Source: Oligoflexales bacterium
GTDB taxonomy: Bacteria; Bdellovibrionota_B; Oligoflexia; Oligoflexales; Bog-1112
Length of the DNA: 52,994 bases
Assembly (NCBI GenBank): GCA_013215275.1
Contig: JABSRF010000004.1
Span: forward strand, 1 to 52,994
Direction of reading: 5' to 3'
Shown piece after piece: positions 1,207 to 40,518 of this stretch; within the stretch, counting starts at the first letter, position 1, and every line of letters starts with the position of its first letter. Position numbers and translations under genes: made by a program. The notes beneath the pieces are model-generated. The model saw only the letters and a program-made list of their open reading frames with translations. It did not search any database and had not been told where the DNA came from.

Positions 1207-1788
1207 TCAAATCTCATTCATAAAAGCCCGGTGAACATCATCTGCTTGCACTCCTAGGTAAGTGAGCGTTTGAAGCTGACTGGAGTGATTAAATGCCACC
1301 ATTAAGGTTGGAAGGTCTGTTTTAAACTGGGTGCGCTGCATGTACCCAAAAGTTTTCCTGAGACTATGGCTGCCAAAGCGCCCCTTTATAGAACATTCCT
1401 TTGCCCAAGCTTGCACCATGCGGTTAAGGTGACGCACGGTAATTGCATCGTGGCCACCTTTTCTTGATAAGAAAAGCGGAGCGTCATCTCTAGTTGAGCG
1501 CCTAGTTCCCAAGTACTTTTGCAGTGCATTATGGCTTGCTCTGTTTAGCGTTACCTGTCTGGCCTTACCAGTTTTCTTTTCCCGAATCACAAAATGCTCA
1601 CCTGGGCTTAGGTGCTTAACGTCTGAAAGTCTTATCCGAAGTAAGTCAGAAGCTCTCAGCGCCGTATTTATACCGATTGTGAAAATAGCGAGGTTTCTAG
1701 GCGAGTCTGTGAGAAGCCGTTTAATTGAGCTTACATGCTGGGGTAAACGTATAGGTTCAACTCTTGTGATGCGTCCTAGGTTGGCCAT
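1207..1788 (-). CDS. Tyrosine recombinase/integrase, catalytic domain only
   Basis: LRASDLLRIRLSDV (Arg I), HSLRKTFGY (HxxR), FNHSSQLQTLTYLGV (H/Y box); 193 aa, lacks a full N-terminal SAM-like domain. Confidence 0.88.
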   Translation of the reverse strand: MANLGRITRVEPIRLPQHVSSIKRLLTDSPRNLAIFTIGINTALRASDLLRIRLSDVKHLSPGEHFVIREKKTGKARQVTLNRASHNALQKYLGTRRSTRDDAPLFLSRKGGHDAITVRHLNRMVQAWAKECSIKGRFGSHSLRKTFGYMQRTQFKTDLPTLMVAFNHSSQLQTLTYLGVQADDVHRAFMNEI

Positions 1789-1988: not shown

Positions 1989-2002
1989 GGAGGAAAGGGG
2001 AT

Positions 2003-2080
2003 AACGTGTTATAATGTTACAAACGTGTTATAAGTAATAATCCAATGATATCAGCGTTTTACCAACATGTTATAATGTTA
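2003..2080 (+). repeat. Three AAC(G/A)TGTTATAA repeats
   Basis: AACGTGTTATAA at 2003-2014 and 2022-2033; AACATGTTATAA at 2064-2075; GTTATAATGTTA shared by 2008-2019 and 2069-2080. Confidence 0.7.
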
Positions 2081-2326: not shown

Positions 2327-2592
2327 ACTAACCCGTTACGCCCTCTTTAGGAGGGCTAACGAGAAGCAACTAACTTAGGAATTAAGAAGCAAATCATTAG
2401 GTGTGATCCAATGTTAGCAAATATGATGCAAGCCAGCTCCAGGCAAAGATTTCCTACCGCCTAAAATCTGAAAAACCCTCGTAAAACTCGGTCGTTTTTC
2501 CTTTGCTATAGTCCTTCTTTTCTTGGCAACTCCAAAGAAACCTCCCTCTAGGCTCTCAGGTCATTACGCCCCCAAAAAGTGATCAACTTCAC

Positions 2593-2657
2593 CCCGAGGG
2601 TTTTTACCCATGTTTTTTCATACGAAAAATAAGGTCTTGACACGCTAGTTTGATCAC
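2593..2657 (+). repeat. 65-bp inverted repeat, left copy
   Basis: 27-bp block CCCGAGGGTTTTTACCCATGTTTTTTC and 22-bp block CTTGACACGCTAGTTTGATCAC separated by 16 nt; inverted partner at 4456-4520, 59/65 matches by hand count. Confidence 0.9.
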
Positions 2658-2701
2658 AATCAATCGACAGGGGCACTCAGTTTGTCAAGTACTATTTTAC
2701 A

Positions 2702-2757
2702 TACGATTTTTCGGATATAAAAATAACTAACTTTTCTAGTTATCGTACGATTTTTCG
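2702..2757 (+). promoter_or_regulatory. Direct repeat TACGATTTTTCG x2 flanking an ATAACTA/TAGTTAT dyad
   Basis: TACGATTTTTCG at 2702-2713 and 2746-2757, upstream of the 2849 gene. Confidence 0.5.
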
Positions 2758-2848
2758 TTGCTTAAAAATAGTTTAATTGACAGCGTTTTTTTATGTTCCT
2801 ACTCTGGATTTAGTTGCAAAGTTCAAAACAATTTCAAAGGAGTTTCGC

Positions 2849-3163
2849 ATGATGACAGACGCCGAGATAGCTAAGGGTATAGCTTCAAAAATCAAAGACT
2901 ATCAGGAAGAGATGTGGTTTTTGGGCACTGACATTCTATTTGAGAGGGATTTAGATTTAATGAATGAGGGTAAAGGAACTGCATTTAATCGAGAAGAAGG
3001 TGCCATATATCTTGCTCAAAACGAGTCTTTTTTTGAGGAGGAAGGTTACTCGTATTTCTTTATAGAGATCATTAAAGAGGCTAGAGAAAGAGGTTATGTA
3101 TGGATTTTCTTCGATCGGGATATTCAAACCAACTACATTAAGACAGGAGTTAGCAATGCATAA
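2849..3163 (+). CDS. Hypothetical acidic protein
   Basis: ORF-track ORF trimmed to ATG 2849 preceded by AAGGAG. Confidence 0.6.
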   Translation: MMTDAEIAKGIASKIKDYQEEMWFLGTDILFERDLDLMNEGKGTAFNREEGAIYLAQNESFFEEEGYSYFFIEIIKEARERGYVWIFFDRDIQTNYIKTGVSNA

Positions 3164-3647
3164 GTACCAAGCAATGGACGTATTCGGAATCGACGAAAGC
3201 ATCGACAAAACAAGTCTAAAAGGGCTCTACCTTTCGTTAATCAAAAAGTATCACCCAGACGTTAACGCCTCGGGCCTTCACATGACACAGTTGATTAACC
3301 AAGCGTATGACGTGCTTAAAGACTTGGATTTTATCGACAGGGAAGGCAAAGCAAGCAATCTTGATTTATCAGAAGAACTTGAAAAAGCTATCAATCTAGC
3401 TTGTCAGCTTGTAGGGGTTGAAATCGAACTATGTGGTACATGGCTGTGGGTTCGAGGTGATACGAAGCAACATAAGGAAGCTTTAAAGGAAGGAGGTTTT
3501 ACATTCCATAGTAAAAAAGTTTGCTGGTACTGGACCAAGGCACCACGGAAAAGGAGGTACAACAAGCAGTTAGAAATGGATGATATTAGGGCTAAATATG
3601 GTTCTAAAGGGTTTAAGTCTGATCAACATCAATATTTAGGAGTTTAA
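3156..3647 (+). CDS. DnaJ (J-domain) protein of the mobile-element type
   Basis: J-domain with IKKYHPDVNASG (HPD) and C-terminal LCGTWLWVRGDTKQHKEALKEGGFTFHSKKVCWYW; start at 3156 with an upstream AGGAG. Confidence 0.8.
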   Translation: MHKYQAMDVFGIDESIDKTSLKGLYLSLIKKYHPDVNASGLHMTQLINQAYDVLKDLDFIDREGKASNLDLSEELEKAINLACQLVGVEIELCGTWLWVRGDTKQHKEALKEGGFTFHSKKVCWYWTKAPRKRRYNKQLEMDDIRAKYGSKGFKSDQHQYLGV

Positions 3648-3648
3648 A

Positions 3649-4116
3649 ATGGATCTACTAGAACGCTTAGACAAGATTGCATACAAAAAATCTCAACCCT
3701 TCTGCTACTCCTGTTATGTCAGGGTTAAAGGCTCTCACTGTAGGCTTTGTGGTTCAGACGATCTAATGCGAGAAGACAAAAATGGTCTTGATTGGGGGAT
3801 CGATCATATTATCGAGACTATATTGGATGATGAGCCCGTAGAGCACGCATGTATCACTGATAGCTACGATTTAATGCTAGATGAATGCTACCCAGAGGTG
3901 CAAATGGGATACAATACCTGGACACCTTCAGACCTTCTAAAAAACATGTCACCGGGAGACTATGAATATGGCAAAGGGGAACACTTAGACCATCTCATAG
4001 AAAGCGAACAAGTCATTGAAATCAACGGTAACTACTACTGGGAAGCTGAAATAAGTGAACTAGTAGAAGGTCTTGAAAATGAATTAGAGGAAGAGAATGG
4101 TGATTCAGCGGCTTAA
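3649..4116 (+). CDS. Putative zinc-ribbon protein
   Basis: CYSC...CRLC near the N-terminus; directly follows the J-domain gene. Confidence 0.6.
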   Translation: MDLLERLDKIAYKKSQPFCYSCYVRVKGSHCRLCGSDDLMREDKNGLDWGIDHIIETILDDEPVEHACITDSYDLMLDECYPEVQMGYNTWTPSDLLKNMSPGDYEYGKGEHLDHLIESEQVIEINGNYYWEAEISELVEGLENELEEENGDSAA

Positions 4117-4177
4117 GTTTGAGCGCCTACGCTCGCTGAATCATCTATAAACTAACAACCCCATACTTAATTGTCTA

Positions 4178-4200
4178 GCCCGCCTTTGAGCGGGCTTTTT
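4178..4200 (+). terminator. Rho-independent terminator
   Basis: GCCCGC-CTTTGA-GCGGGC followed by a T run. Confidence 0.85.
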
Positions 4201-4455
4201 TAGTTTCAGCCTCGCCAGCACCACCGGACTTTTTTACCGCCCGTTATCACAAAAATAATTCCATTTTTTCTTTTTTTCCTTAAATCCATTTTTAATAATC
4301 TCGCCTCTTATATGCTCTATTTTTGGGCTATTATTGGGTTTTAGGTCGTGACCGCCGAAACCGTTTGCGACATTTAGTTTTTAACATTTTTTTGTGATAC
4401 TAAATTTCGTTATGTCGTTTTTTCTTGACAAAAAACGTGATCATTTGAGGCCCTG

Positions 4456-4520
4456 GTGATCAAACTAGCGTGTCAAGTGCTAATTTTTTGTTCGAAAAAA
4501 CATGGGTAAAAACCCTCGGG
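4456..4520 (-). repeat. 65-bp inverted repeat, right copy
   Basis: GTGATCAAACTAGCGTGTCAAG (4456-4477) and GAAAAAACATGGGTAAAAACCCTCGGG (4494-4520), reverse complement of the left copy with the same 16-nt spacing. Confidence 0.9.
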
Positions 4521-4642
4521 TTCAACTGAGGTAACACCCCCATATCGCCGAACGGCGAAAGCTCTGAGACTCGATTTAACCCATGTCGCCGAGGGTTCCG
4601 GGTACTATAGCCCATCCAAAAACCTTCGGGTCTATGCGGTTT

Positions 4643-4670
4643 TCATTGGTTCAGCGGGCCGAACCAATGA
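4643..4670. repeat. Perfect dyad TCATTGGTTC-AGCGGGCC-GAACCAATGA
   Basis: 10-bp perfect arms with an 8-nt centre. Confidence 0.8.
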
Positions 4671-4796
4671 GAGCAATTTTAAGCCATTGGCCAGTGGGGA
4701 AAATTGTGTACAGACCTCTTAGGGGTGTGATTCGGGGCGGTCGTGTGTGAGGGCTTAGAAGGGTTTTTTTAGGGCTTCGCTCCTATTTTGAGTACC

Positions 4797-5351
4797 TTAA
4801 CAAGCCTCTCCAGCCTTCTTCCTAAGCAAGCGCTTTTTCAGTTCCTGCTTTAAGGTACATTCATCATTGTAACTTCCCTCGATACAATGATGCCAATCTC
4901 GACCAATAAGCAATTCAACTACTTCTATTTTGTCGTTAGCCATATATACCCGTAGAGCAAAATAGCCGGGAAAGCGGGAATAGTAATCATATGATCTTGA
5001 GTTTTTGTTTCTTAGGCAATCTTTCTCTGGCCCATCATCTTCACTTAAGGTGTGATGAAATCGATCGTGCCTTTTTAGAGTGAAATTCCTAAGAGTTAAT
5101 TCTGCATCAAGAATATCGGTATCAATATCTTCATTAGTCTTAGATTTCTCTGCATAACATGTGAATTCGAACTCCTCATTTATCCCTAAAAAGCTGCCCT
5201 CGTTATCTGGGTAAAGTTTTTCACATACCCTCCCCAAGATAATTTCTTTCCCTGATACAACCTCGGTTCCACACCTGTTGTTGCAAGTAGCTGTATAGGT
5301 GCCATCATCATTCATTTCTAGTTTCGTTAAGTTCTCAATTCCCATTTTCAA
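4797..5351 (-). CDS. Hypothetical protein at the end of the late operon
   Basis: 184-aa ORF, overlaps the upstream endolysin gene by 4 bp. Confidence 0.6.
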   Translation of the reverse strand: MKMGIENLTKLEMNDDGTYTATCNNRCGTEVVSGKEIILGRVCEKLYPDNEGSFLGINEEFEFTCYAEKSKTNEDIDTDILDAELTLRNFTLKRHDRFHHTLSEDDGPEKDCLRNKNSRSYDYYSRFPGYFALRVYMANDKIEVVELLIGRDWHHCIEGSYNDECTLKQELKKRLLRKKAGEAC

Positions 5352-9469: not shown

Positions 9470-9515
9470 GTATCTCCAAAAGTCACTTGCTTAATTTAAA
9501 CCTTAAAACAAAGGA

Positions 9516-9565
9516 TGAAAAGGGGGGTAGGTGCACTTTTTGGCACGTTTGGCACAAACCGGACA
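9516..9565 (+). repeat. 50-bp intergenic repeat, copy 1
   Basis: TGAAAAGGGGGGTAGGTGCACTTTTTGGCACGTTTGGCACAAACCGGACA, 49/50 identical to 21079-21128. Confidence 0.95.
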
Positions 9566-9570
9566 GTTTC

Positions 9571-10602
9571 TTAAATTCCGTATCCAAATTTCGTTACATC
9601 AACACCAGATTTACCTTCTTTTTTAATCGGATCAGGTGCGTATGCATCTTGTCTCGTAAAGGAAAGGTTAGTTGTTGTGCCACCTGAATCAAAGTAATAG
9701 TCAATGGATCTTAAAAGAAGAGGTATGTCATACAAGGCAAGCCTGGGTGAGTTGATGTTATAGATTTTATTTGGAAGCCATGGCTTACCATCATAGGTCC
9801 AACCTAGAACAGTAGCGCTAACATCCAATGCTCTGGCTGCTCTTATGTTTACTTCCCAGTTGATTTTTTTCTGTGCTTCTGGCTTTTCTAGCTGAATATC
9901 ACTAACAATTTCTAATGGACGGTAGCGCTTAATACCAGGATCTTTAGCCTTGGCAACAAAGTATTTATTGTCCTTGTCTTGTGCCTTCAGTATGTAGTCG
10001 CTAAAGCGCTCTTCGTCATTGTAGGTGGCAAAGCAGTCTAGGAAGTCATAACCCTCTCTTAGCAGTGGGCCTTTTTTGTCCTTGGTGATTTTAGTCAGAA
10101 GTAGCTTGCCATCTCCCGATGGCTGCAGGATGATTCCAAGCTGCCTCGTTGCTTTTTCTATGGACTCGAAAAGGGTTTCACCTGGGTCGATCTTAAGGGT
10201 TTTGATCCTTGGGCTTTCTCCAAGCTGGTTAACGACCTCGATGCCAAATGGTTTAACAAGTTCGCTAATGATAGCGATAATGCTTTGATTGCCCGTAAAC
10301 TCACGCTTTGAGCCGCTATGAGTGCAGTCTATAAGGTCGCAGGTGTTATCGCGGCCAACTACCTGAATGCTCCTATCATTGGATCTTAGGTCCGGGGCGA
10401 TATAGTCAATGTAGCCGTGGATGAGTGGAGTATTATCTATAAATATCTCTACCTTATCACCTGCTCCAATCGTAAGGGCCTTGGAGGTTTGGACTGCGTT
10501 AAACTCAAAGTTACCCGCTATGGCCTCAAGTTCTTTCCTAACCGTTAGTTCGTTCCAATCTCGGAATATATAACCATTTACCTTGATTATGATTTCACCC
10601 AT
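9571..10602 (-). CDS. Baseplate hub protein (Mu gp44/gpP-like)
   Basis: MGEIIIKVNGYIFRDWNELTVRKELEAIAGNFEFN...; start trimmed to 10602. Confidence 0.8.
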   Translation of the reverse strand: MGEIIIKVNGYIFRDWNELTVRKELEAIAGNFEFNAVQTSKALTIGAGDKVEIFIDNTPLIHGYIDYIAPDLRSNDRSIQVVGRDNTCDLIDCTHSGSKREFTGNQSIIAIISELVKPFGIEVVNQLGESPRIKTLKIDPGETLFESIEKATRQLGIILQPSGDGKLLLTKITKDKKGPLLREGYDFLDCFATYNDEERFSDYILKAQDKDNKYFVAKAKDPGIKRYRPLEIVSDIQLEKPEAQKKINWEVNIRAARALDVSATVLGWTYDGKPWLPNKIYNINSPRLALYDIPLLLRSIDYYFDSGGTTTNLSFTRQDAYAPDPIKKEGKSGVDVTKFGYGI

Positions 10603-11692: not shown

Positions 11693-13842
11693 CCATTCAC
11701 CATAATTCTGCCTGTATCGACGGTAGCCGTTGACCTAGAGCGGTTTCGAACCTCTACCCTGGTATTCCTATCTGCTCCATCAAGCTTGATATTTACGTCT
11801 AGCTGTTGTTTCTCATTAATCGTCGTTTTCTGGATTAACTCTTGTTTAAACGATGCAAAGTCGAATCCTTCCCTTAAAACTTTAGGATCAAACTCCTCAT
11901 CGTCTTCTAGGATTGGATCAAAAACATCCTTAAAACCTCTGGTAATTGCATCAGGAGTCCATTTAATAGGAGGCAATCCACCAGTCTGTTGGCTCCAATC
12001 TAAGAACTTGATAGGCTCCCACATGGGTACATTTTGCAAGGGACTAAGCTGCTTTTCTGGCTGCGAAGCCTCAATGACATTTGAGATCCAGGTAACATTG
12101 TTTGCTTCATCAGCCCCAAAGCTTAAGCGCTGATTGTCTTTGTACTGCTGGTAAGCATCAAGCTTCCTTTGGTGCTGAGCGCTAGGTAAGTCGGGAGCTT
12201 CAATTTTTATCGTTGGTATCTTTAGTGGTTTAGTTCCAAGTAAGAAACCAAAGCCACTGTTTTGAATCACATTGATAACTTCATTCACTACCTCGATGGC
12301 AACATTTAGCAAGGAATACAAGCCTTTTTTGACATTGTATGGGATCAGGTATGCAAAATCGGCTGCTGCAAGCATAAGCCAATCCAAACCTTTTTTAAAA
12401 CGCTCGGTATTGTTGAAAGCCCACCAGATACCATAAGCAAGGCCCGCTACAGCTAGGGTTCCAAGAACAATCAAAGAGCCTGTGGTCAATAATGCAAGGT
12501 TCGTTAGCCCTAACATGACGGTGAATTTTTTTAGCATATGGAACATGACGCCTAGGCCATAGGCAACTGGACCAAACACCATAGCAACGCCGCCTAGAGC
12601 AAGTGTAAAGGTTAGGGTTGAGTTGCTTGCACTTGTGATGTCAGACAAGAAGTATCCTAAAGACCTCATCGAGGCGTTGATGACCTTTAAAAATCCAGTA
12701 TCCCCAAGCTTGACCATTAAGCCTTCAAGGGCACTGATTAGTAGCTTAAAAGCTCCACCCGTTCCAGACATATACATTTTAGCTATGATTTTTGTTAGGC
12801 CATCTGCGTTGTACTTAATACCTTCTAAGTACCCGTTAAGCTTTTCAAAATTGTCACTCAGGCCTACGATATACTTGCCTGCATCTTGTCCGAATATCTT
12901 TTGATAATCTGATAACTGGGCACCATGCTCATCGAGGAGCTTGATGAAATCTTGGAATTTTACCTTGAACCTTCCTGTAGATTTATCAAGAAACTCATCG
13001 TGATAGATTCCAAGCTTTGCGAGGGTTTTGGTTACTTCATTGGCTTTATCAGCTGAGGTGAATTTGGTTATACGGGACAAAGCACCAGCTAAGGCTACAC
13101 CTGCAGTTTCCCCTTTGTGGCCCGCATCTGCTAAGGCCATCATGCTTGCGGTGATATCCTCAAAGCTCACGCCTGCTTTAACTGCTACGCCCCCAACTTT
13201 TGCTAATCCGTTGTGTAGCTCCGTTAGGGTGGTGTTTGAGTTAGTGAAGGCATAGGTCAGCTTGTCGGATACCTCGGACATTTGACCTGCCTTTTTTCCA
13301 AAAGCAGTTAGGATGTTAGATGCATAGTCGGAAGCCTCTCCGAGCTCCAATTGGCTAGCGGCTGCTAGGTCCATAACACCTGGAATTGCCTTGATAATTT
13401 CCTTAGACTTAAAACCCGCCATGCCTAGAAAGCTCATTCCCTCTGCTGCTTCTTTGGCTGAAAACTGAGTCGTAGCACCAAGGGATTTAGCAAGGTTTCG
13501 CATTCGAAGGAATTCTTCAGAGGTGGAGCCGGTTAGGGCTTTTACCTTAATCATCCCCGTTTCAAAGTCGGTGGCAACCTTTGCGGTTGCTGCACCTGCA
13601 AGTGTCAGTGGAGCTGTAATGCCTAGGGTGGCGTTTTCTCCAAGCTTTTTGTACTTGTTTCCAATTCGATTCAACCTTGAAACAATAGGTTTTAATGCTC
13701 GTTCGTTAGCTCTTAGCTTATTATTAAGCCTATCAATAGGCTGCATAAGTTTCTGAAAACGAGCTGACAGCCTACGCAAAGAAGCAGTTGCCTCCTTTTC
13801 GCGGGCTGATATTTGGAAAACTATTTTCTTACGTCTTGGCAT
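11689..13842 (-). CDS. Tail tape measure protein
   Basis: TP901-type core: ATDFETGMIKVKALTGSTSEEFLRMRNLAKSLGATTQFSAKEAAEGMSFLGMAGF; hydrophobic central segment. Confidence 0.95.
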   Translation of the reverse strand: MPRRKKIVFQISAREKEATASLRRLSARFQKLMQPIDRLNNKLRANERALKPIVSRLNRIGNKYKKLGENATLGITAPLTLAGAATAKVATDFETGMIKVKALTGSTSEEFLRMRNLAKSLGATTQFSAKEAAEGMSFLGMAGFKSKEIIKAIPGVMDLAAASQLELGEASDYASNILTAFGKKAGQMSEVSDKLTYAFTNSNTTLTELHNGLAKVGGVAVKAGVSFEDITASMMALADAGHKGETAGVALAGALSRITKFTSADKANEVTKTLAKLGIYHDEFLDKSTGRFKVKFQDFIKLLDEHGAQLSDYQKIFGQDAGKYIVGLSDNFEKLNGYLEGIKYNADGLTKIIAKMYMSGTGGAFKLLISALEGLMVKLGDTGFLKVINASMRSLGYFLSDITSASNSTLTFTLALGGVAMVFGPVAYGLGVMFHMLKKFTVMLGLTNLALLTTGSLIVLGTLAVAGLAYGIWWAFNNTERFKKGLDWLMLAAADFAYLIPYNVKKGLYSLLNVAIEVVNEVINVIQNSGFGFLLGTKPLKIPTIKIEAPDLPSAQHQRKLDAYQQYKDNQRLSFGADEANNVTWISNVIEASQPEKQLSPLQNVPMWEPIKFLDWSQQTGGLPPIKWTPDAITRGFKDVFDPILEDDEEFDPKVLREGFDFASFKQELIQKTTINEKQQLDVNIKLDGADRNTRVEVRNRSRSTATVDTGRIMVNG

Positions 13843-14298
13843 TGAAAAACTCGTTTGCTTGTTTTGCTCGATCTAACCAGTATTCTAGCTCGACTTGACT
13901 CATATTCATGAGCTTGTCAGGGTCAACATGGAATAAATAGGCTATGATGGCATGAGCCGATTCATAGTCTAAATTCCATCTTCGAGCAAAAAACTTACTC
14001 GGTTCACCAGCTCGACCGCATCCTTCTTGGATAAGCAGTCAATCACTCTTCTTGGTTGCTCCACAAGCTTTTGGCCTATATCAAGGAAATCACCGAAAGT
14101 CATTTCACCACCAAGCTTGATAGTTCTCATTTCCTTACAGGTTAGATCCCTTAGCTTGAATGACTCGATATAGTCTTTGCCAAACTTGATTGGCTTCTCT
14201 AGCTCCATGAAATAAGGGTCAAACTCAATTTCCATTTCTTCGTCTACTTGTACTTTAACTTGGTTTGTCATTTTTAATGTCAGCTCCCATTCCTTCAA
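13829..14298 (-). CDS. Predicted -1 frameshift fusion: tail assembly chaperone plus C-terminal extension
   Basis: Frame-0 codons AGT TTT TTG CTC contain T_TTT_TTG (complement of 13993-13987); -1 reading gives FFARRWNLDYESAHAIIAYLFHVDPDKLMNMSQVELEYWLDRAKQANEFFNAKT* ending at 13829. Confidence 0.75.
13969..14298 (-). CDS. Tail assembly chaperone (Mu gp41-like), zero-frame product
   Basis: EKPIKFGKDYIESFKLRDLTCKEMRTIKLGGE..., located between tail tube and tape measure. Confidence 0.8.
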   Translation of the reverse strand: MKEWELTLKMTNQVKVQVDEEMEIEFDPYFMELEKPIKFGKDYIESFKLRDLTCKEMRTIKLGGEMTFGDFLDIGQKLVEQPRRVIDCLSKKDAVELVNRVSFLLEDGI

Positions 14299-14636: not shown

Positions 14637-16115
14637 TTATGGAGTAAATGCTATGGTTGTTATAGTTCGCCTGAGTTGCCCCATAAGCTGAACGGGAAGG
14701 AAAAACCTCAAGGATTCACCATCGTTTTCATCCACCCGGACATTGATTAGATTTTTAAAGCTTCCGTCTGGGTCTTGGACGTACTTTTCTTGTTTCCAAC
14801 GGTTATGCCTAGCAATAGCAAGGTCCCTAGCTGACTTGGGCGTAACAATATCGCCATCTGCCTGGGTGTTATCCCTTGATAATCCGCTGCGTGGGAACAT
14901 GGTTTTAAGGAACTTCACAAAATCATAACGAAGATAGCTTAGGATCTGCTTTTTGTTTAAATCCCTGTAGGACTTGTCCTTTGAATGCATTGTGACCAAG
15001 CGATCAATCTTTGCTTTGCCGCTTTCGACAATGTGAGTGCTAATTCCGGCTGCTAAAAGCTGGTTTCGCTCGCTAAGCTTGTACTCTGCTTTTGGCAAAG
15101 CATCGGGAACGTCCAATGGCAAAGGGATTTCCAAGGATGAGTAGGGAAGGTATGGCTTACTCACATACTTGGCATTTACAGCTGCAAGGCTTGCAGCCCA
15201 TACCGCCGGGTCAAGCTGGGAATCACCAATGGCCAGGACCGTAACATGGGGTAACTCATTGAGATTGCTATATGTAGTTTTGATTCCGGTCACCTTTCCA
15301 GATACAGCCGTGAAGTAATGACCATCCATCTGAAGGGTTGGGCCCCAACGCTTTTCAAGCTCTTTGTTGATCTTCTTTAGGTCAGCTACGCTGTTAAATT
15401 CTGCTGCTATCTGGGTGAACTGCATCTCTGGCAATTCATCGATGGCTTGCTGAATGCTTTTGGTGGAGATATGACCTCTTCTAAATGCCGTTCTTTCTAC
15501 CTTAAAACCTGGTACTTTTAACTCAATTCCTAGCGAAAGCTGGTTTGAATTATGAACAATATTTTTGTGTGTTAAGGTTAAAGTAGCCCCTCTTAAATTG
15601 ACATCATAGTGAAGGTCCTGGTTAGCATCGAGCGCTTCCTTTAACCTCTGGCTTAGTATCTCTAGGGTCTTTTCATGGTAGTTACCATCTTCTGACTTAA
15701 ACTCGGACTCCTCGTACTTAACAATGATTGGATCTAGGCCACAAATGCCTAGTACTAGCTCACCTTTCCCTGGGTTTTCCTCAGATTTAGAAAAAGTAAA
15801 TTCCCATGAAGGCTTGGTAGAATCCATGTCAGTGATCGCTAAAGCGTAGCATTCCACCATCGGATTAGCTTCAAAGACAGCCTCTAGCATTTTTACTATT
15901 TGCGATTCGCTGTTAGGATAAATATCAGCAATTCTTGATAAAGACGTCACTTGTTGGAGTCCCTCTTTTGGGACTTCATTTTTGTTGGGCTTGTATCTTC
16001 CTATGACAAGCAACCTCTGTGCTTGCTTGTTTAGTGCGCCCTTGGATGGATTGTAAACCATTCCTGCAAAGTGATAAGGCGCTAGTCCATCTTGGACTGT
16101 GATTTCGCTAGGCAT
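14637..16115 (-). CDS. Tail sheath protein (Mu gpL-like)
   Basis: PYLPYSSLEIPLPLDVPDALPKAEYKLSERNQLLAAGISTHIVESGKAKIDRLVTMH. Confidence 0.9.
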   Translation of the reverse strand: MPSEITVQDGLAPYHFAGMVYNPSKGALNKQAQRLLVIGRYKPNKNEVPKEGLQQVTSLSRIADIYPNSESQIVKMLEAVFEANPMVECYALAITDMDSTKPSWEFTFSKSEENPGKGELVLGICGLDPIIVKYEESEFKSEDGNYHEKTLEILSQRLKEALDANQDLHYDVNLRGATLTLTHKNIVHNSNQLSLGIELKVPGFKVERTAFRRGHISTKSIQQAIDELPEMQFTQIAAEFNSVADLKKINKELEKRWGPTLQMDGHYFTAVSGKVTGIKTTYSNLNELPHVTVLAIGDSQLDPAVWAASLAAVNAKYVSKPYLPYSSLEIPLPLDVPDALPKAEYKLSERNQLLAAGISTHIVESGKAKIDRLVTMHSKDKSYRDLNKKQILSYLRYDFVKFLKTMFPRSGLSRDNTQADGDIVTPKSARDLAIARHNRWKQEKYVQDPDGSFKNLINVRVDENDGESLRFFLPVQLMGQLRRTITTIAFTP

Positions 16116-21013: not shown

Positions 21014-21078
21014 TTATGCCTCTGACTTAGGAGAAAATTATGTTATGCAGGTAACAATTTAATACTTTAAATAAAGCT

Positions 21079-21128
21079 TGAAAAGGGGGGTAGGTGCAGT
21101 TTTTGGCACGTTTGGCACAAACCGGACA
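21079..21128 (+). repeat. 50-bp intergenic repeat, copy 2
   Basis: 49/50 identical to 9516-9565; between gpW-like gene and ssb. Confidence 0.95.
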
Positions 21129-21237
21129 AATTCTTAAACCCCCTTTTTTTTAAGCCTTGTGTGAGCCTCGGTGATAGCTATATAAAGGAGGGGAAAGCTA
21201 CTGAAGATGAACTTAGCTACAGAAAGGAAAAATCATC

Positions 21238-22424: not shown

Positions 22425-25400
22425 TCAAAGAAAACTAGCTTGTTGAGGATATGCATCTTCAACAATATTATCACCTCCAAACTCAAAAGCGTTCCACTTT
22501 TCATCAGACCATTTATGCATATTCAAAATAGTATGCAATCCTAGGATGTAGACAAGACAGTCTAAACCCTCAACATCAGGATATTTTTTGATCCATTTGT
22601 ATTTAGCACGGCCTTCTGAATCTTCTGTTAGCTCACAAACTTCACCACAGACTTGCTTGTAATACTCATCTGACATTCCATCAGGAAAGCTTATATACTC
22701 GGATGGGATCCCGTCATCGGTCTTGAGGTTTAAGCGTCCATAAAGATCCATTTTGATGAGGTTTACACCGAGGGGGTACCGATGCTTACCAAGTCTCATG
22801 ATTTTGCCATTAACTTTGATCTCGAACTTCTTAGCAGGGAGAACTTTGTCAGTCCATATGCCGGTACCTGTGACTGGTACCACTTTCTTACGGGTCCTGG
22901 CAAAGCGGCCTACTGCATTAGAATTGTGCCTAGAGTCGATCGACATCTTGTGAATCTTAAGCTGGGTACCATCGGGCTTGTCCCAAGTTGACTTATGAAT
23001 CAAGTCGTCAAGGTCCTGCCATACCTGATCGTCTGCATTGTGGGTATTGCCTGGTATCACATGGTGGTCAATCACAAAAAACTGGTTCTTAATCACTCCT
23101 GCAACCGTAACCTCTACGCGGTCATGCTGAACGTCGCAGCCTGCGAGTAGAACCATGGCTTGCTTTGGAACGGTGCCACGATGGTATTGCTTCTCTTTGT
23201 CCTGTAATCCCTGCCAGTCGGGGGTTTGGAGGGCTTCAAAATTGTAAGGAAGGCCCAAGGTGGTGTTCCACCAAACCATAAGTTTTGCCTGGTTTTGGCC
23301 TGCATCGAGGTATTTAGTAAAGTTTTCTTGCCAAGAGTTAGTGTAGAAGGCATTGATATGGAACCCTGGAAATTCTCCATCGGCTTTTTGAGGTACCCAA
23401 CGTGTCTTTGGGGGGAATTCTTCAAAGTCTTCCTCCCATATTTTTTTCGCGCAACCTTTGCATACAAAATGGAAGCTCTTGGCCATTTCCTGCTTGCTCA
23501 AGGTGCAGTGTTTGTCTCCTTTGCCATCCCAAAAGAAGTTTTCCCAGTCAAGGAATTGTTCATGCTCACAATGAGGACATGCGACATATGGCAATCTTTG
23601 ATCGGACTTGAGCCAATATTCATAGATCTGAGAGGTATCTTTGACTGAAGGGGTAGAAGTCATAAGGGTAAATGTTCTTGGTGCAAAGCGCTTCATACGC
23701 TCAAAAAGGAGCAATAAACTGTTGCCCTCGATCACTCCTGCAGAGTTCCTTGCAACCACTTCGCAGCGGTCGAGTTCATCGATAACTAGCCATGGAGTTG
23801 GGAATGAGCAAAGCTTGTCGGCATTACCACTTCCGACAAATCGTAAATAGCCTGTGGGCCATTGTTTATAGAGGATTGTGTTTCCATTTGTCTTGCCTGG
23901 GGGGATCAAGTCAGCAAGTTTTTTGCAGTCTCTTAGCATGGGAGTGAAACGAGCTTTCGAGTAATCCCTTGCTATAACTTCTGAAGGAAGCATGAAAGTG
24001 ATACCACCAGTTCGAGCACAGACCATATACATCAGCATGTTGAATAGGATCGTTGTGTTATGGGTTGGTATCATCGACTTTCCAGCAAGGAACAAATGAC
24101 TTGGTGAGTCCACTTGAATGCAACGTACTGGTACCGAGTCAACTTTTTCAATGTTTACAATCTTCCGATTCTTGACTTCAGACACTCTACGGCCTGCCAT
24201 AAAAGGCTGGCGTTCCAGCTTTCTATGAGCTCTAAAAACCTCAAAATCGTCTCTATAAGCCATGAAGGTGAAGAGATAGGAGGGCTTGCCGGGTGTTCTA
24301 ACCCCATTCTTCACAGCAAAAGGGTGCTCCACAACATACTTCGCCTTGAACCCAAGGGAAGTAATCAGTTCGAAGAATCCATCAGCAAGCTCTTTGTCAG
24401 AGGTTGAGAATTCACACCTGCCTTTTTTACCGCATGTTCCATCTGTATCCATTAGGCCTTGCAACAAGGAAAGACGCTGTTTAAACGATGATCTTAGATA
24501 CTCCTGTGGGATATGTTTACCACCTCCAAACTTTTTCAGAAAATGATTTTCTTTCAATTTTTCATATAGACTAAATTCAATTTTGTCATCCTGCTTATAA
24601 CCTCTCTGGTAGTGTTGAGAAGATTGAACAGCACATTTTTTGCAATAGCCTCTATTATTAAGACCAACCTCCTTAAGGTTGTGCCCACGTTTACATGTCT
24701 TGCGTTCACGCATGGGAGATCCAGGATCGATGGAGAATGTAACTCCACCATAGCCTTCAGCCATATATATGGGCCTAACTCGATGCCCTGCGTTTACTAT
24801 GCAATCTATAATGACTAGATCTTCAGAATTTAGGGTAACCTTATTTGAATTATTATGGCCATCACCTAGCCAAACTCCCAATACATACGGGTCTATTGGC
24901 AATTCTTTTTCTGGCAATTCTAAAGGCTTCGCAACAGGAATGCTAAAGTGATTTCTTATCTTGCCTCCAGGCTTCTCGGATCTAAATCGTGGAAGCATCT
25001 CTTCTGTAGTAAGAGTTAACTTTTTGTCTGTTCTACCCCATTTAGCATAACCTACCTGCCATAGGTGATCTGCATCAGCAACAACAGAAGAATCGTCTGA
25101 AAAGGTTACTCTGTAGCAATCCCTATGAAGCATCACTGGAGAAACATAAGTCACCTCGCAGGCATTGCCCTTTTCATCAAAGATTTTATCGCCGACCTTT
25201 AGCTCTCCCATGGTCGTCCATCCATCGGGAGTGGCTATAAGTGTATTAATATCAAGTGCTTTGCCTATCTGAGCACTGGTCATATATACGGCCATCCTGT
25301 TGCCTTGCCGATTAAATGAGTCGAGCATTTCTCTTTGAAATGGCCAGCACTTAAACTTTCCAGGTTCCGGTGAATCCTCTACTGATAATATGCGGTAAGC

Positions 25401-25529
25401 CTCTGCAAATTCACTCACCGTCAGAGTAGGGGGTGGAAGAAAGCTTTGGGTAGCAACCTTGGCTTTCATTCGCGTTTTGCTCTTAATCTTCTCCATCAAC
25501 ATCTTCTTCAACTCCTGAGCCGATTTCAA
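22425..25529 (-). CDS. Terminase large subunit (GpA family) interrupted by an intein
   Basis: N-extein ...KCWPFQREMLDSFNRQGNRMAVYMTSAQIGK / C-extein TTILFNMLMYMVC...LVIDELDRCE...LLAGCDVQHDRVEVTVAG; intein between them. Confidence 0.95.
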   Translation of the reverse strand: MKSAQELKKMLMEKIKSKTRMKAKVATQSFLPPPTLTVSEFAEAYRILSVEDSPEPGKFKCWPFQREMLDSFNRQGNRMAVYMTSAQIGKALDINTLIATPDGWTTMGELKVGDKIFDEKGNACEVTYVSPVMLHRDCYRVTFSDDSSVVADADHLWQVGYAKWGRTDKKLTLTTEEMLPRFRSEKPGGKIRNHFSIPVAKPLELPEKELPIDPYVLGVWLGDGHNNSNKVTLNSEDLVIIDCIVNAGHRVRPIYMAEGYGGVTFSIDPGSPMRERKTCKRGHNLKEVGLNNRGYCKKCAVQSSQHYQRGYKQDDKIEFSLYEKLKENHFLKKFGGGKHIPQEYLRSSFKQRLSLLQGLMDTDGTCGKKGRCEFSTSDKELADGFFELITSLGFKAKYVVEHPFAVKNGVRTPGKPSYLFTFMAYRDDFEVFRAHRKLERQPFMAGRRVSEVKNRKIVNIEKVDSVPVRCIQVDSPSHLFLAGKSMIPTHNTTILFNMLMYMVCARTGGITFMLPSEVIARDYSKARFTPMLRDCKKLADLIPPGKTNGNTILYKQWPTGYLRFVGSGNADKLCSFPTPWLVIDELDRCEVVARNSAGVIEGNSLLLLFERMKRFAPRTFTLMTSTPSVKDTSQIYEYWLKSDQRLPYVACPHCEHEQFLDWENFFWDGKGDKHCTLSKQEMAKSFHFVCKGCAKKIWEEDFEEFPPKTRWVPQKADGEFPGFHINAFYTNSWQENFTKYLDAGQNQAKLMVWWNTTLGLPYNFEALQTPDWQGLQDKEKQYHRGTVPKQAMVLLAGCDVQHDRVEVTVAGVIKNQFFVIDHHVIPGNTHNADDQVWQDLDDLIHKSTWDKPDGTQLKIHKMSIDSRHNSNAVGRFARTRKKVVPVTGTGIWTDKVLPAKKFEIKVNGKIMRLGKHRYPLGVNLIKMDLYGRLNLKTDDGIPSEYISFPDGMSDEYYKQVCGEVCELTEDSEGRAKYKWIKKYPDVEGLDCLVYILGLHTILNMHKWSDEKWNAFEFGGDNIVEDAYPQQASFL
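24057..25259 (-). mobile_element. Putative class 3 intein (401 aa) with LAGLIDADG-type endonuclease, in the Walker A motif
   Basis: Begins ALDINTLIATPDGWTTMGELKVGDKIFD, has DADHLW, LPIDPYVLGVWLGDGHN, LLQGLMDTDGTCG, VPVRCIQVDSPSHLFLAG, ends MIPTHN before Thr. Confidence 0.9.
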
Positions 25530-27062: not shown

Positions 27063-27128
27063 GCAACTCCTATCTCAATGCTGCGAGAAAGAGTTTACAA
27101 TATTAGGAAATGTCGGGAAAGGGGGTGT

Positions 27129-27147
27129 GTGCCAAACGTGCCAAAAA
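27129..27147 (-). repeat. Partial inverted copy of the GGCAC repeat element
   Basis: GTGCCAAACGTGCCAAAAA is the exact reverse complement of 9537-9555. Confidence 0.85.
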
Positions 27148-27180: not shown

Positions 27181-27510
27181 TTAGAATAATAGGGTTTTCA
27201 GCTTTTCTCTGACCTCTGCTAAGACTTCATCAGGAACACTGCCTGTTATTACTGCATTCCTAGCTGATATATCTAAGCATTTAATTTGGTCAGTTAATAC
27301 TACACCCGTAATTTTTCGGTTCCTTGGTAGTTCAACCTCAAATGGATACCCCTTTTTCTTCGAGGTAACGGGACACATTATTGCAAGTTTGGTTATCTTA
27401 GTATAAGAGGATGGAGAAAGAACTAATGCAGGTCGTCGGCCTGCTTGCTCGTGACCTGCCTGTGGATTAAAGTCAACATAGATCAAATCACCGGCATTTG
27501 GATATTGCAC
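27181..27510 (-). CDS. mazF: MazF/PemK-family toxin
   Basis: MQYPNAGDLIYVDFNPQAGHEQAGRRPALVLSPSSYT...CPVTSKKKGYPFEVELP...GVVLTDQIKCLD. Confidence 0.95.
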   Translation of the reverse strand: MQYPNAGDLIYVDFNPQAGHEQAGRRPALVLSPSSYTKITKLAIMCPVTSKKKGYPFEVELPRNRKITGVVLTDQIKCLDISARNAVITGSVPDEVLAEVREKLKTLLF

Positions 27511-27752
27511 TACCAGACCTCATTTCCTTGTGGGTTTTCTTCATTTAGCCACTCTTCATCATTGTGCATATTTTCTGGAGTTATCTTTGCTAATAGCTGT
27601 TCAAGCCCTTGCTTGGGTTTGATTACAATAGCCCCATCAATAACTTCCAAGGTTACTTCACTATTTTCTTTTAGGTTTACTTCTTCGAGTACATTCTTGG
27701 GAACACGTAGCCCTAAGCTATTGCCCCAAGTTTTGAGTGTTGCCGTTGTCAT
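27510..27752 (-). CDS. mazE: MazE/PemI-family antitoxin
   Basis: MTTATLKTWGNSLGLRVPKNVLEEVNLKENSEVTLEVIDGAIVIKP; ATG at 27752 preceded by AGGAGG. Confidence 0.92.
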   Translation of the reverse strand: MTTATLKTWGNSLGLRVPKNVLEEVNLKENSEVTLEVIDGAIVIKPKQGLEQLLAKITPENMHNDEEWLNEENPQGNEVW

Positions 27753-27765
27753 ATAATACCTCCTG

Positions 27766-27783
27766 ACTATGTTTATACATAGT
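27766..27783. promoter_or_regulatory. Probable mazEF operator dyad
   Basis: ACTATG-TTTATA-CATAGT, directly upstream of the mazE RBS. Confidence 0.55.
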
Positions 27784-27817
27784 ATATACATACTAACGGC
27801 ATTTCAAGCGGTTTACT

Positions 27818-28829: not shown

Positions 28830-29049
28830 CGCTAACTCCCCAACTTCTGGTTACTTCCACTTGGCGGGTCAGTAACTCAACACCATCTTCTGATATCGTT
28901 ACTTCATACTTGCCTTCTAATTCGCTTTGCATATCAACATTTTCAATCATGATAGCCTCATCAACTGCCTCATCTGGGCTTTCGGCGTCGATGTCTCCTA
29001 CGTACTCTGAACCTCTTTCATTTCTTATTTGATATTCGTATCTATACAT
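28819..29049 (-). CDS. Hypothetical protein
   Basis: 76-aa ORF, overlaps its neighbour. Confidence 0.5.
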   Translation of the reverse strand: MYRYEYQIRNERGSEYVGDIDAESPDEAVDEAIMIENVDMQSELEGKYEVTISEDGVELLTRQVEVTRSWGVSVVG

Positions 29050-29501
29050 TATTTATTTATCCTCAAAACATTTGCGACTAGTTCACCCCTGAAGGACTGA
29101 ACAATCTCCGACAATTCAGACTGAATAAAGCTAAGCTGCTGCGTCCACGAAAGTCTTGTTTCTTTATCCATTGAGCACCAATCAGCATAGGCGTTGCCAA
29201 TCACAAAACTGAGAATCTTGGTAACACTGATTGGATTTTTTGTTTTAACTGCAGCTATTAACGCCAAATCATACTCTTGCTTCTCAAGTTCATCTTCTAT
29301 TACAAGATCTTTCCTGAGTTTTTCAGCGAATTTATATGAACAATAAGGTTCCACAACTCCCATTTCCATCTTTGTATGATAATAGGGGTCATAGCCAAAT
29401 TTTTCACAGAATTCTTTGCGTGAATAACCAAGCTTCAGCCGTTTTTCTTTAACATACCTTCCAAACACATCGGGAAAGCCTCTGTTTTCTGTACTCTTCA
29501 T
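29049..29501 (-). CDS. XRE-like HTH protein
   Basis: FGRYVKEKRLKLGYSRKEFCEKFGYDPYYHTKMEMGVVEP; start at 29501 with AAGGAG. Confidence 0.65.
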   Translation of the reverse strand: MKSTENRGFPDVFGRYVKEKRLKLGYSRKEFCEKFGYDPYYHTKMEMGVVEPYCSYKFAEKLRKDLVIEDELEKQEYDLALIAAVKTKNPISVTKILSFVIGNAYADWCSMDKETRLSWTQQLSFIQSELSEIVQSFRGELVANVLRINK

Positions 29502-29512
29502 AAATCCTCTCC

Positions 29513-29620
29513 TTAACCAACGCACCTAGCGATCATCATCAGCACCATTCCGATGAGTATTCCAAGGCAAAAGAAAGCAATGATTGTTTGTTTAATAAAT
29601 TCCCATAGGCTGTTACCCAT
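29513..29620 (-). CDS. Micro-ORF: 35-aa transmembrane peptide
   Basis: MGNSLWEFIKQTIIAFFCLGILIGMVLMMIARCVG; GGGAGG a few nt upstream of ATG; overlaps the ruvC-like 3' end by 8 nt. Confidence 0.6.
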   Translation of the reverse strand: MGNSLWEFIKQTIIAFFCLGILIGMVLMMIARCVG

Positions 29621-34454: not shown

Positions 34455-34816
34455 TGTACCCAGTGTACCCAACGAAATATAGGATGGGCACACTTTTTGG
34501 GTACACTTTTTTATCAGTTTAATTAGTTAGTTAGATACTCTAAATTCTATTTGTACCCAGTGTACCCAAGAAATAAAAAGATATAGATATATAGAGATAT
34601 AAATAAAAATAAAAAAATATATCTGACTGTGGATGTATTTTATTTTTTTTATTTTCCCCTATCCCTATATATATTTCTTTTTCAGAAAAAGTGGGTACAT
34701 TGGGTACACTTCGAGATTTAAGCTTTAAGCACCTATAATATTGGAAAATATTTGTACCCAAAAAGTGTGCCCAACCCAAAATCAGGGTGGGTACAGTGGG
34801 TACATTTTTGGGTACA
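34455..34816. repeat. Iteron-like array of TGTACCC/GGGTACA around an AT-rich core
   Basis: Exact 7-mers at 34455, 34464, 34499, 34552, 34561, 34693, 34702, 34753, 34789, 34798, 34810; variants at 34486 and 34766; 18-mer TGTACCCAGTGTACCCAA at 34455 and 34552. Confidence 0.9.
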
Positions 34817-34826
34817 CTTGGAGAAA

Positions 34827-37586
34827 TTAGCTAGATATGGGGATTAGTTTGAGGCATTCAGCTTCAATTGTGCGGAATTTGCCATCGAGGACAATGACTT
34901 TCAGGTTGGGGTTGGACTTTAATTGCTTGCTGATACCAACGATAGCATCACGCTCAATCTTATCTTTGTGCTGGAAAATGTTATTTATAACTTCAACTTG
35001 AGTACCTGCAGGGAACACATCGGTGCCATATTGAGCTTCATCCTTAAGCGACCAAACTTTTGGCGGCTCACATTCTTCACGGTTTAAGATTAAATCAACT
35101 GGAATATACACGCTCTTGTCCAGTATTCCTGAGATCCTAATGGATTGCCGCTTTAAGGCCCCTTTGAGTCTTCCAAGGGAGTGATTCCAGTTTTTCCAAT
35201 GGGATTTTTCAAAAATTTTTGCAAGCTCCACATGCTTGCTGAATACAGCTAGGTACTCCTTCCCTTCTTTTTGATGGACCTTCATACCATACTTCTCCAG
35301 CTCCTTTTTGTGTGGTCCTTGCAGGATATTGACAATTGTATCCTCAAGGTGGCTAACTTGATCGCCAAAATCGCGTGTGTACCTTATCTTAGTGGTTAAT
35401 AGATGGTTTAAACATAATTCTTCATCCCGCTCAGTCTTGGAGAGATCCTTATCTGTAAGGCATTTCATCATCAAACATAGGTTTCTGGCAGCATCTTCCG
35501 TTGGAGGTTGATCCGATGTAAGACTAAAGTAGCTAGCTAATAACATTCCGGTTTGGTCTGCATAGCGTGAGGTATGCCCCATCTGTAAGATAACTTTCTT
35601 AAAGACTCTGTATCCCTCATTAATATTGTCAATTTGCTGGATAGCTCTTGCAAAAAGCCTAAGACCAAACTCGGGAGTGATTTTTTCGCAGGCAGCTAAA
35701 AGGTTAGCTTCATGAATTGGATCTGAGTTGTGACGTGCAAGTTCAAGTATGGAAAAGCGGCCCTTATCCTGAGCGCTTTTGAGGTGAACCTTGATCGAGC
35801 ATACTAAAGCAGTGACTTGGGGATCATAGTTTAATGCTGTACCACTTGTGGTTCCTTTATACATACGGGCGCTTGTAGGGCTCCATGATTGCCTCAGAAA
35901 CTCTATAATGCCTTGCTGGATATAGTTGTTAGATTCCGTCTCAAATTCATCGTATATGACCGGCAAAGAGTCACCTTGTAGGGTTTGCCTGATACCAGCA
36001 GCAGTGGTATCTTGTCCTGCTTTCATGAACCCATCTTCACCACCTAATGCGGGGGTCAATACATCGTTAAACAAAAGCGATTTTCCACACCCCTCACTGG
36101 CTGTAACCCATAGCCTGGGTCTTATAGGTAGCGCTCCTGATACTCTTGCAGTTGCAACCCATCCTAAGAACAAGGGGATTGAGTCGTAACACTCCCAAGA
36201 AAAGTGTTTGATAGCCATGATGAGAAGCTTGCATTCCTCCACTGTTAACGGTGTTGGTGGCTCTGGAAACGAAAACTGTGAAGCTGTGTAGGTGTAAGTT
36301 GAGTGGATGTCTGACATATCCTTCATGGTCCCATCCACTATGAGTTTTGAGCCTGTGTTCACTACCGTTGCTTTTTTATCCTTCCAGACACCAACACCTC
36401 TGACTTTGTGGGGTGAAAAGATCCCAGCATCCATAGACTCAGAAATGATCTGTGCTTTTGCTTGGTCCCAATAGACGCCACCGTCTGGTTTAGGGAACAT
36501 GACTTCTAGCTCATCAAGGGGAAAGGGTATTAATTCACATACGTTGCTGTTACTTACAGAGCGAGTTTTTTGTATTGTGTGATTCTTATAGCTATAGAAA
36601 TAATGGTAAGGACCATTTTGCCCAAGAGCCCTGTATGTGATTTTCTCGCCATCTTCTAAGCAAAGCTGGTCCTTTACCTCATCGAGCCCTTCTCTAACAT
36701 GAAGGTCGTTAAAATCGGTGGTAGCTTTTCCATCGTATTCCATAAATACGGGAAAAACCGGCTTGTTCATAAAGAGCTTAGATGCTTTTATAGCCTCGGT
36801 TTTGCCTGGGTTTCCTTCTGTAGCATGGTCATCATCACCAGCGACAACGAAGTTGACCTTGGGATACTCTTTCTTAAGAAGCTTTGAGACTTCCACAAGG
36901 TTATGTTTGGTGAAGGTCGCAACCACCACATTGCCTGTAGCTAGTCTAAGGCTTGCGCCCGTAGCCCATCCTTCGCAAATATAAACAACCTTTGATGGGT
37001 TAGTTAAATGACCGAATGTGTATATGCTACCAGTAAGCACAGTACCTAGGATCTGGTACTTACCGCCATCGGCAGAGATCCTTTGGCCACCCATGATTGA
37101 GCCTTTTATGGATCGGAACGGGATAAATAGCTTGTCACCGTCCATACAAAGGTCGAACGGCTCGATTAACTTTCGCTTTAAATAAGGATGGTCAGCGTTA
37201 GCCTTAGTCCCACGATCCAAGATCTTTTTAGCAGTCATCCTTGCTTCTTCGTTCAGCTTTTTCTTAGATTCATCGGCAACTTTCTTCGCTTTTTTCTGAG
37301 CGAACTTAATGTCTTCTTTCTCATTCCGGGAAAGCTTAACCTCTGGAGTAAAGGTATACTTTTCTTCATCACTGCTAGCCCAATCACCGAAGGTAACACA
37401 AAGGTATAACAAGCCTTTGGAGGTGGTTAGGTAGCTACCAATATACCAAGCTGAATTTCTGGACAAACCCTCACAACGTCTCAATTTTCCGTCCAAAATT
37501 GGATCATAGATGCTTACATCCCTAGAGGCTGCAAAGCGGATAAACTCTTCACGGAGGTCGTATTCGGTTCTCATATCTTCGCTCAT
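34827..37586 (-). CDS. Toprim primase/ATPase (DUF927-like) replication protein
   Basis: Toprim-like VVYICEGWATGASLRLATGNVVVATF...FVVAGDDDH; Walker A VTASEGCGKSLLFNDV with IYDEFE. Confidence 0.85.
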   Translation of the reverse strand: MSEDMRTEYDLREEFIRFAASRDVSIYDPILDGKLRRCEGLSRNSAWYIGSYLTTSKGLLYLCVTFGDWASSDEEKYTFTPEVKLSRNEKEDIKFAQKKAKKVADESKKKLNEEARMTAKKILDRGTKANADHPYLKRKLIEPFDLCMDGDKLFIPFRSIKGSIMGGQRISADGGKYQILGTVLTGSIYTFGHLTNPSKVVYICEGWATGASLRLATGNVVVATFTKHNLVEVSKLLKKEYPKVNFVVAGDDDHATEGNPGKTEAIKASKLFMNKPVFPVFMEYDGKATTDFNDLHVREGLDEVKDQLCLEDGEKITYRALGQNGPYHYFYSYKNHTIQKTRSVSNSNVCELIPFPLDELEVMFPKPDGGVYWDQAKAQIISESMDAGIFSPHKVRGVGVWKDKKATVVNTGSKLIVDGTMKDMSDIHSTYTYTASQFSFPEPPTPLTVEECKLLIMAIKHFSWECYDSIPLFLGWVATARVSGALPIRPRLWVTASEGCGKSLLFNDVLTPALGGEDGFMKAGQDTTAAGIRQTLQGDSLPVIYDEFETESNNYIQQGIIEFLRQSWSPTSARMYKGTTSGTALNYDPQVTALVCSIKVHLKSAQDKGRFSILELARHNSDPIHEANLLAACEKITPEFGLRLFARAIQQIDNINEGYRVFKKVILQMGHTSRYADQTGMLLASYFSLTSDQPPTEDAARNLCLMMKCLTDKDLSKTERDEELCLNHLLTTKIRYTRDFGDQVSHLEDTIVNILQGPHKKELEKYGMKVHQKEGKEYLAVFSKHVELAKIFEKSHWKNWNHSLGRLKGALKRQSIRISGILDKSVYIPVDLILNREECEPPKVWSLKDEAQYGTDVFPAGTQVEVINNIFQHKDKIERDAIVGISKQLKSNPNLKVIVLDGKFRTIEAECLKLIPISS

Positions 37587-40044: not shown

Positions 40045-40518
40045 ATGAACCAGGAATACAAAAAAATTGTACAAAATCAATTGAGACAATTCTTAAGAGC
40101 CTACCGTCATGCTGAAAACATCAGCGCAGAAGATGCAGCTTGCAAACTTGACCTGGAAATAACTAGTTATCGAAAGCTAGAAGGTCTCAAGCCTGAAAAT
40201 AGAGTAATAAGCAGCATCAGCTACCTAGAAAAGATTGCAAAACTAAGGGCTAAATCTCTCGTTGATTTCATCTCTTTCTTAACCCCTCAAGATTTGGTGA
40301 ATGGTTTAGGTAGAGGCTTATACCTATGGGAAAAAAATATTATTTCTGGCTTTGAAAAAATGAGTGTATCTAAGCGGAATAAATTTCTTAACTATCTCAG
40401 CAAGCTAGAGGAAGATGAGCTAGCTGATTTTTATGACCACTTAGTTGAAATGTCTAAAAAGCGATCTTCAAAAATTTCTTTCACAACTCGCATATTAAGG
40501 GAGCTAAAGGATGACTAG
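40045..40518 (+). CDS. XRE-like HTH protein (candidate repressor)
   Basis: LRAYRHAENISAEDAACKLDLEITSYRKLEGLKPENR, divergent from the antirepressor-like gene. Confidence 0.65.
   Translation: MNQEYKKIVQNQLRQFLRAYRHAENISAEDAACKLDLEITSYRKLEGLKPENRVISSISYLEKIAKLRAKSLVDFISFLTPQDLVNGLGRGLYLWEKNIISGFEKMSVSKRNKFLNYLSKLEEDELADFYDHLVEMSKKRSSKISFTTRILRELKDD

Follow-up and report, generated by a model that had tools for sequence, protein, structure and literature searches.

Phage morons are accessory operons with their own expression signals that lie between phage genes; to our knowledge they are not usually described with long bounding inverted repeats, and a literature text search for morons bounded in this way found no paper. 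In phage lambda, CI bridges oL and oR, which lie on either side of the immunity genes, and Fim invertible elements have 9-bp repeats around a promoter. Here we describe a 1.94-kb unit (2588-4525) in 52,994 bp of DNA from an Oligoflexales bacterium (the window, meaning the whole stretch analyzed), in which long inverted arms bracket a tricistronic plus-strand operon. The unit resembles a moron in being an accessory operon with its own expression signals, set between phage genes. Its arms are like lambda oL and oR in being multi-site elements that flank a 2-kb gene block; unlike the lambda arrangement, no repressor gene was recognized between the arms and no promoters were recognized in them. 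As in Fim-type elements, inverted repeats lie near the gene of a short tyrosine recombinase, but no recombinase core is common to the arms, and inversion would carry the likely promoter along with the genes.

Among mobile elements, mobile insertion cassettes (MICs) are bracketed by inverted repeats, lack a transposase and usually show a target duplication (PMC3913671). MIC231 and mic-qnrD (PMC3913671) share with our unit a size of 1.5 to 2 kb, imperfect inverted repeats, the absence of a transposase and internal expression signals. In mic-qnrD the ends are 24 bp long, the target duplication measures 2 bp and relatives are known (PMC3913671), whereas the ends described here are 170 bp long and have neither of these nor a partner element. 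TIME (PMC4133298) is likewise non-autonomous, with inverted ends and varied cargo; its ends are 38 bp, of the Tn3 family, with 5-6-bp duplications, whereas the cassette ends matched no family in the collections searched.

The window is an entire contig of a 4.55-Mb assembly in 710 contigs. It encodes ParA, ParB, an HU-family protein (228-509) and HTH candidates (29049-29525 and 40045-40518), has a complete gene set for head, tail and packaging on the minus strand, and reads TTACCTAA at both its start and its end. This complete-looking 53-kb contig is most simply a circular phage-plasmid. A 19-bp palindrome, CTGTCGGGCTGCCCGACAG, at 93-111 and 51161-51179, near both contig ends and flanking parA on the circle, is a candidate parS. 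The contig also encodes a Rep-like protein of 771 aa (48553-50868, minus strand) that may contain archaeo-eukaryotic primase motifs. Its 82-86% relative lies on a sister contig of 7.5 kb in this assembly (L065, 4577-6838), one that has its own ParAB, so two related replicons may reside in one cell. Non-coding DNA at 862-1168 is 83-86% conserved with the sister contig (L065 98-213, 1418-1466) and is a candidate replication origin or operator region; GACAAATGTC repeats occur in it at 904 and 1134, and again at 30617. An 83-nt non-coding direct repeat (89%; 9493-9575 and 21056-21138, with a partial inverted copy at 27124-27147) carries TTTTTGGCACGTTTGGCACAAACC and precedes leftward genes, and its copies are perhaps phage operators or promoters. 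Further observations from the sequence were a 1034-aa large terminase reading frame (22425-25529, minus strand) with an apparent intein splitting the Walker A region (AQIGK...HNTT), a predicted pair of MazF-like toxin and MazE-like antitoxin (27181-27791, minus strand), and an array of TGTACCCA-type repeats adjoining the primase gene (34455-34832), possibly iterons. A Silvanigrella phage record includes a 30% relative of the capsid; in the late proteins, identity to relatives is only about 25-44%. In the Silvanigrella phage record CP017837 (L114), 56-nt inverted repeats built of GTACACGGTGTAC palindromes flank parAB (13841-13896 and 15916-15971) and are likely paired parS sites; they are unrelated to the arms and were rejected as their counterpart.

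ORF and terminator scans found the three plus-strand reading frames and the terminator that the initial annotation had placed between the arms. The operon comprises the following features:

2777..2805, plus strand, possible cassette promoter read from the sequence: TTGACA (2777), 17 nt, TACTCT (2800, a weak -10)
2836..2842, plus strand, ribosome-binding site AAAGGAG of cassette gene 1
2849..3163, plus strand, cassette gene 1, 104 aa, ATG start at 2849
3156..3647, plus strand, cassette gene 2, J-domain protein of 163 aa, overlapping the end of gene 1
3649..4116, plus strand, cassette gene 3, 155 aa, directly after gene 2
4177..4196, plus strand, intrinsic terminator of the cassette operon, a 7-bp GC-rich stem and then a T run

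The possible promoter lies within the bracketed unit and outside the repeat, and is absent from the list of a consensus scan. Gene 2 matched the J-domain profile PF00226 (E = 1e-7) and phrog_15863 (E = 2e-30), and defense and NCBI models named nothing in the cassette except this J domain. Gene 1 has weak similarity to the DUF5983 C-terminal domain, below the Pfam cut-off; gene 3 has a Cys-rich N-terminus, a weak phrog_9294 match and two weak partial matches in phages. Neither of these two genes matched anything among the plasmid records. The J-protein family was found in 2,658 of 72,556 plasmid records versus 5 of 50,697 phage records, and the G+C content of the cassette genes is 0.37-0.42 versus 0.44-0.45 for the phage and Rep genes. 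Because the family is common on plasmids and rare in phages, and the cassette is lower in G+C, the cassette is likely acquired cargo. Genes of the family occur on conjugative plasmids, and one of the five plasmid neighborhoods inspected also contains an antirestriction gene; by analogy with the gene company of these relatives, our guess is that the cassette might act at entry into a new cell.

The arms are laid out as follows:

2588..2657, plus strand, left arm, outer conserved part of 70 bp, with 62/70 matches to the right arm
2658..2757, plus strand, left arm, inner degenerate part, with identity of about 47% in the same register and no indel
4356..4455, minus strand, right arm, inner degenerate part
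4456..4525, minus strand, right arm, outer conserved part, 70 bp

The 65-bp near-perfect inverted repeat reported earlier was correct in all its figures (59/65 matches, perfect blocks of 27 and 22 bp, a 16-nt spacer), and the outer arms, inverted copies of each other, reach five bases further out. Their alignment scored 108 compared with a shuffle mean of 20.2 (sd 4.2; z = 20.8). The eight mismatches fall at positions 3, 5, 33, 34, 37, 44, 47 and 48 of 70, a clustering that leaves two clean blocks (P about 0.012), and the 16-nt spacer between the perfect blocks accounts for six differences between the arms. The arms extend inward in exact register with zero indels, to about 170 bp each (2588-2757 and 4356-4525). 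Across the inner part, 48/103 positions were identical (28 expected, P = 1.7e-5), and alternative shifts within six bases gave 21-33 matches, none above 33. Successive 20-nt intervals inward from the 70-bp core held 7, 11, 10, 8 and 11 matches per 20, followed by 3-6/20, the chance level. Outward, matches were at 2-6/20 already in the first interval, and the 150 positions beyond the outer edges held 38 matches (P = 0.44), again chance. Shared register that persists for 100 nt inward, next to outer flanks with chance-level identity, marks a sharp outer edge of the kind seen in terminal repeats; the inner edge is fairly sharp. From the in-register inner matches with chance-level flanks, the arms either descend from one 170-bp segment or have been held to one pattern over that length.

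Three boxes are identical, at identical offsets, in both arms:

2593..2619, plus strand, box A, left, CCCGAGGGTTTTTACCCATGTTTTTTC, 27 bp, perfect in both arms and containing the dyad GGGT/ACCC
2636..2657, plus strand, box B, left, CTTGACACGCTAGTTTGATCAC, 22 bp, perfect in both arms
2681..2689, plus strand, box C, left, TTTGTCAAG, 9 bp, at an equal offset in both arms
4424..4432, minus strand, box C, right, TTTGTCAAG
4456..4477, minus strand, box B, right
4494..4520, minus strand, box A, right

Over seven bases, box C is complementary to the beginning of box B, which gives each arm the dyad CTTGACA-N40-TGTCAAG; there are two smaller ones, GGGT-TTTT-ACCC and a T-run opposite an A-run. Folded as a consensus, the two arms lay below column-shuffled energies (z -3.5 and -4.2; 3/200 and 0/200) because of these three conserved dyads; the joint fold is evidence of conserved dyads and not by itself of single strands forming. 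Folded as single strands, the arms showed no more than a mild advantage over shuffles (z -1.6 to -2.7). The motifs GTGATCA, CTTGACA and AACCCTCG were strongly enriched in both arm regions (hypergeometric about 1e-7, with no correction for the number of motifs tried). We rejected a small RNA with its end in box A, since its fold was little or no better than shuffles, and also a perfect FNR-like TTGATCACAATCAA at 2650, which is found in arm 1 only and also in 15/100 shuffles. No convincing tRNA or Rfam match was found. The non-coding DNA to the right of the cassette (4525-4680) contains GC-rich hairpins, CGCCGAACGGCG and CATTGGTTC...GAACCAATG. A viral contig with a distant J-domain relative (L004) has a 44-bp inverted repeat (91%; 4814-4857 and 4957-5000) around the start of that relative's gene, of a sequence unrelated to the arms.

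Each arm does contain the inward-facing TTGACA noted before, at 2637 (plus strand) and 4476 (minus strand), and the initial annotation had therefore considered duplicated promoter ends. This proposal was not supported, as neither TTGACA has a -10 element at 16-18 nt by reading or by consensus scan. At that spacing arm 1 reads TCAATC and arm 2 reads GGGCCT, so that a sigma-70 pair was seen in neither arm, and each TTGACA is half of the conserved dyad. Arm 1 sits between divergent genes, whereas arm 2 sits between the convergent 3' ends of the cassette and the leftward late operon, and is thus no gene's promoter. Because the arms lack a common transcription context, a role at the DNA level fits better than one as promoter or leader. 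An octamer, GCTATAGT, occurs once outside each arm at nearly mirrored positions (2505-2512 and 4604-4611). Its position as a paired -10 is suggestive, yet the outer flanks are otherwise random and it is expected 1.2 times in the window by chance; this candidate was rejected.

We also searched for other copies of the ends. None was present elsewhere in the 4.55-Mb host assembly, and neither BLAST nor a covariance model found one in the 57 other genomes of the class (58 genomes in the collection); looking for the 65-bp ends around other cargo in related genomes, as had been suggested, thus found none. The single match of the covariance model in another genome (E = 0.025, in 1 of 58 genomes) was at chance level, and a 33-bp match in one genome (G004), rejected as an arm copy, looks like an AT-rich chance match. 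Exact 18- to 22-mers of the ends found nothing in IMG/VR or GTDB contigs, and BLAST found nothing in phage and plasmid records. The earlier statement that no known insertion sequence explains the repeat holds as an absence from the collections searched. On the replicon itself there are two copies only, with no arm-like site at other promoters. The cassette edges showed no target-site duplication, the best candidate (TTCAC/TTCAA, 4/5) being equaled by 57% of random pairs, and no autonomous partner element with matching ends was found in the host assembly or the 57 other class genomes.

Several explanations of the arms were weighed. The gene of a small tyrosine recombinase lies 0.8 kb from the cassette:

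1207..1788, minus strand, small tyrosine recombinase, 193 aa, phrog_216 (E = 7e-42), judged not to act on the arms
2002..2019, plus strand, candidate core site of the recombinase, TAACGT-GTTATA-ATGTTA, upstream of its gene, with a related stretch at 2064-2080

Site-specific inversion of the cassette between the arms by this enzyme, suggested by its proximity and by a weak hit to NF007370, a model of FimB/FimE-type DNA invertases (E = 4e-5, well short of the cut-off of that model), is very unlikely, the least probable of the explanations considered here. Among NCBI models XerA and XerC were nearest, and the family occurs on 1,819 plasmid records. Three of the four plasmid relatives examined have a palindrome upstream of their own recombinase gene (arms of 11-25 bp, spacers of 3-8 bp: 11-bp arms with an 8-bp spacer in L091, 14-bp arms with a 6-bp spacer in L092, 25-bp arms in L094; that of L093 was less clear), and the core at 2002-2019 is placed likewise. 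In an invertible element both repeats would hold the recombinase core; the candidate core was sought in the arms and none was common to both, a TAAC-type palindrome at 2724-2742 being in the left arm only. The 16-nt spacer, with its six differences, also speaks against inversion. Flipping would not switch expression, because the likely promoter and the terminator of the cassette lie inside the arms, and no contig of the assembly had the opposite orientation or an alternative junction. From its neighborhood, the recombinase probably resolves plasmid multimers at its own site. Alternatively, the arms could stem from an old duplication of a promoter or leader region, have no joint function and have been maintained by chance or by gene conversion. 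This is very unlikely: the nearly mirrored GCTATAGT would fit it but is expected by chance anyway, arm 2 precedes no gene, and boxes of 27 and 22 bp that have stayed perfect next to diverged DNA point to selection, although their clustering reaches only P = 0.012.

It is quite unlikely that the arms are structured single-strand elements (Frpo/ssi-type promoters or primer sites) that come into play while the cassette DNA is in single-stranded form. The same hairpins form in both arms with TTGACA paired in a stem, and the J-domain family is on conjugative plasmids, once near an antirestriction gene. In Frpo elements, however, both the -35 and the -10 are paired in the folded single strands (PMC11541004), whereas the stem here contains TTGACA alone, with no -10, and the folds are only mildly better than shuffles. 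Two opposed copies would also serve both strands, a tailed phage delivers double-stranded DNA, and no relaxase was recognized among the larger ORFs. The main rival, possible though doubtful, is that the arms are paired composite protein-binding sites, operators or architectural elements, bridged by a phage-plasmid protein, in the way that CI acts in lambda, so that the J-domain operon is looped out, silenced or insulated; the pair would then be regulatory, not mobile. The fixed spacing of boxes A, B and C, the motif enrichment, and the other repeated non-coding elements on the replicon (the 83-nt repeat, the GACAAATGTC repeats and the palindromes at 93 and 51161) argue for such bridging, and the phage HU-family protein could assist bending. 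Against it, there are two arm copies only and none at other promoters, no regulator was recognized, and a simple operator has no need of degenerate similarity that runs inward in register for 100 nt from a sharp outer edge.

We tentatively favor, at somewhat less than even confidence, reading 2588-4525 as a discrete passenger cassette of the phage-plasmid, MIC-like, with ends acted on in trans. Sharp outer edges, a complete operon, and cargo that is common on plasmids and rare in phages support a cassette with defined ends. The earlier proposal of a mobile or invertible cassette accordingly survives as a unit with defined inverted ends and not as an inverting one; no sign of present-day movement or flipping was found. 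The 170-bp ends would be recognized at the DNA level by a trans-acting factor, with a transposase or recombinase as the likeliest candidate and the boxes as its candidate binding sites. Such a factor may once have inserted the unit where it now lies, flanked by the late operon and a small lipoprotein gene. As in MICs, inverted repeats bracket cargo of another kind with no internal transposase. Points against this cassette reading are the lack of a target duplication, an internal transposase and other end copies, together with the degenerate inner 100 bp, unlike a young terminal repeat. Since the duplication usual for MICs and a partner element (an autonomous, trans-acting one with matching ends, sought in the host assembly and 57 class genomes) are missing, we do not file the unit as a proven MIC member. 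It is quite unlikely that the arms belong to a hitherto undescribed class of mobile cassette, one whose ends are long and rich in dyads and which makes no target duplication, and through which phage-plasmids of this lineage gain plasmid-typical accessory genes.

If the ends are bridged sites, they would form an unusual two-sided control unit on a phage-plasmid. The acquisition of accessory genes (morons) by phages is mostly unexplained, and a cassette whose ends are clear and shared would offer a starting point on how morons enter, as its ends name the recognition target.
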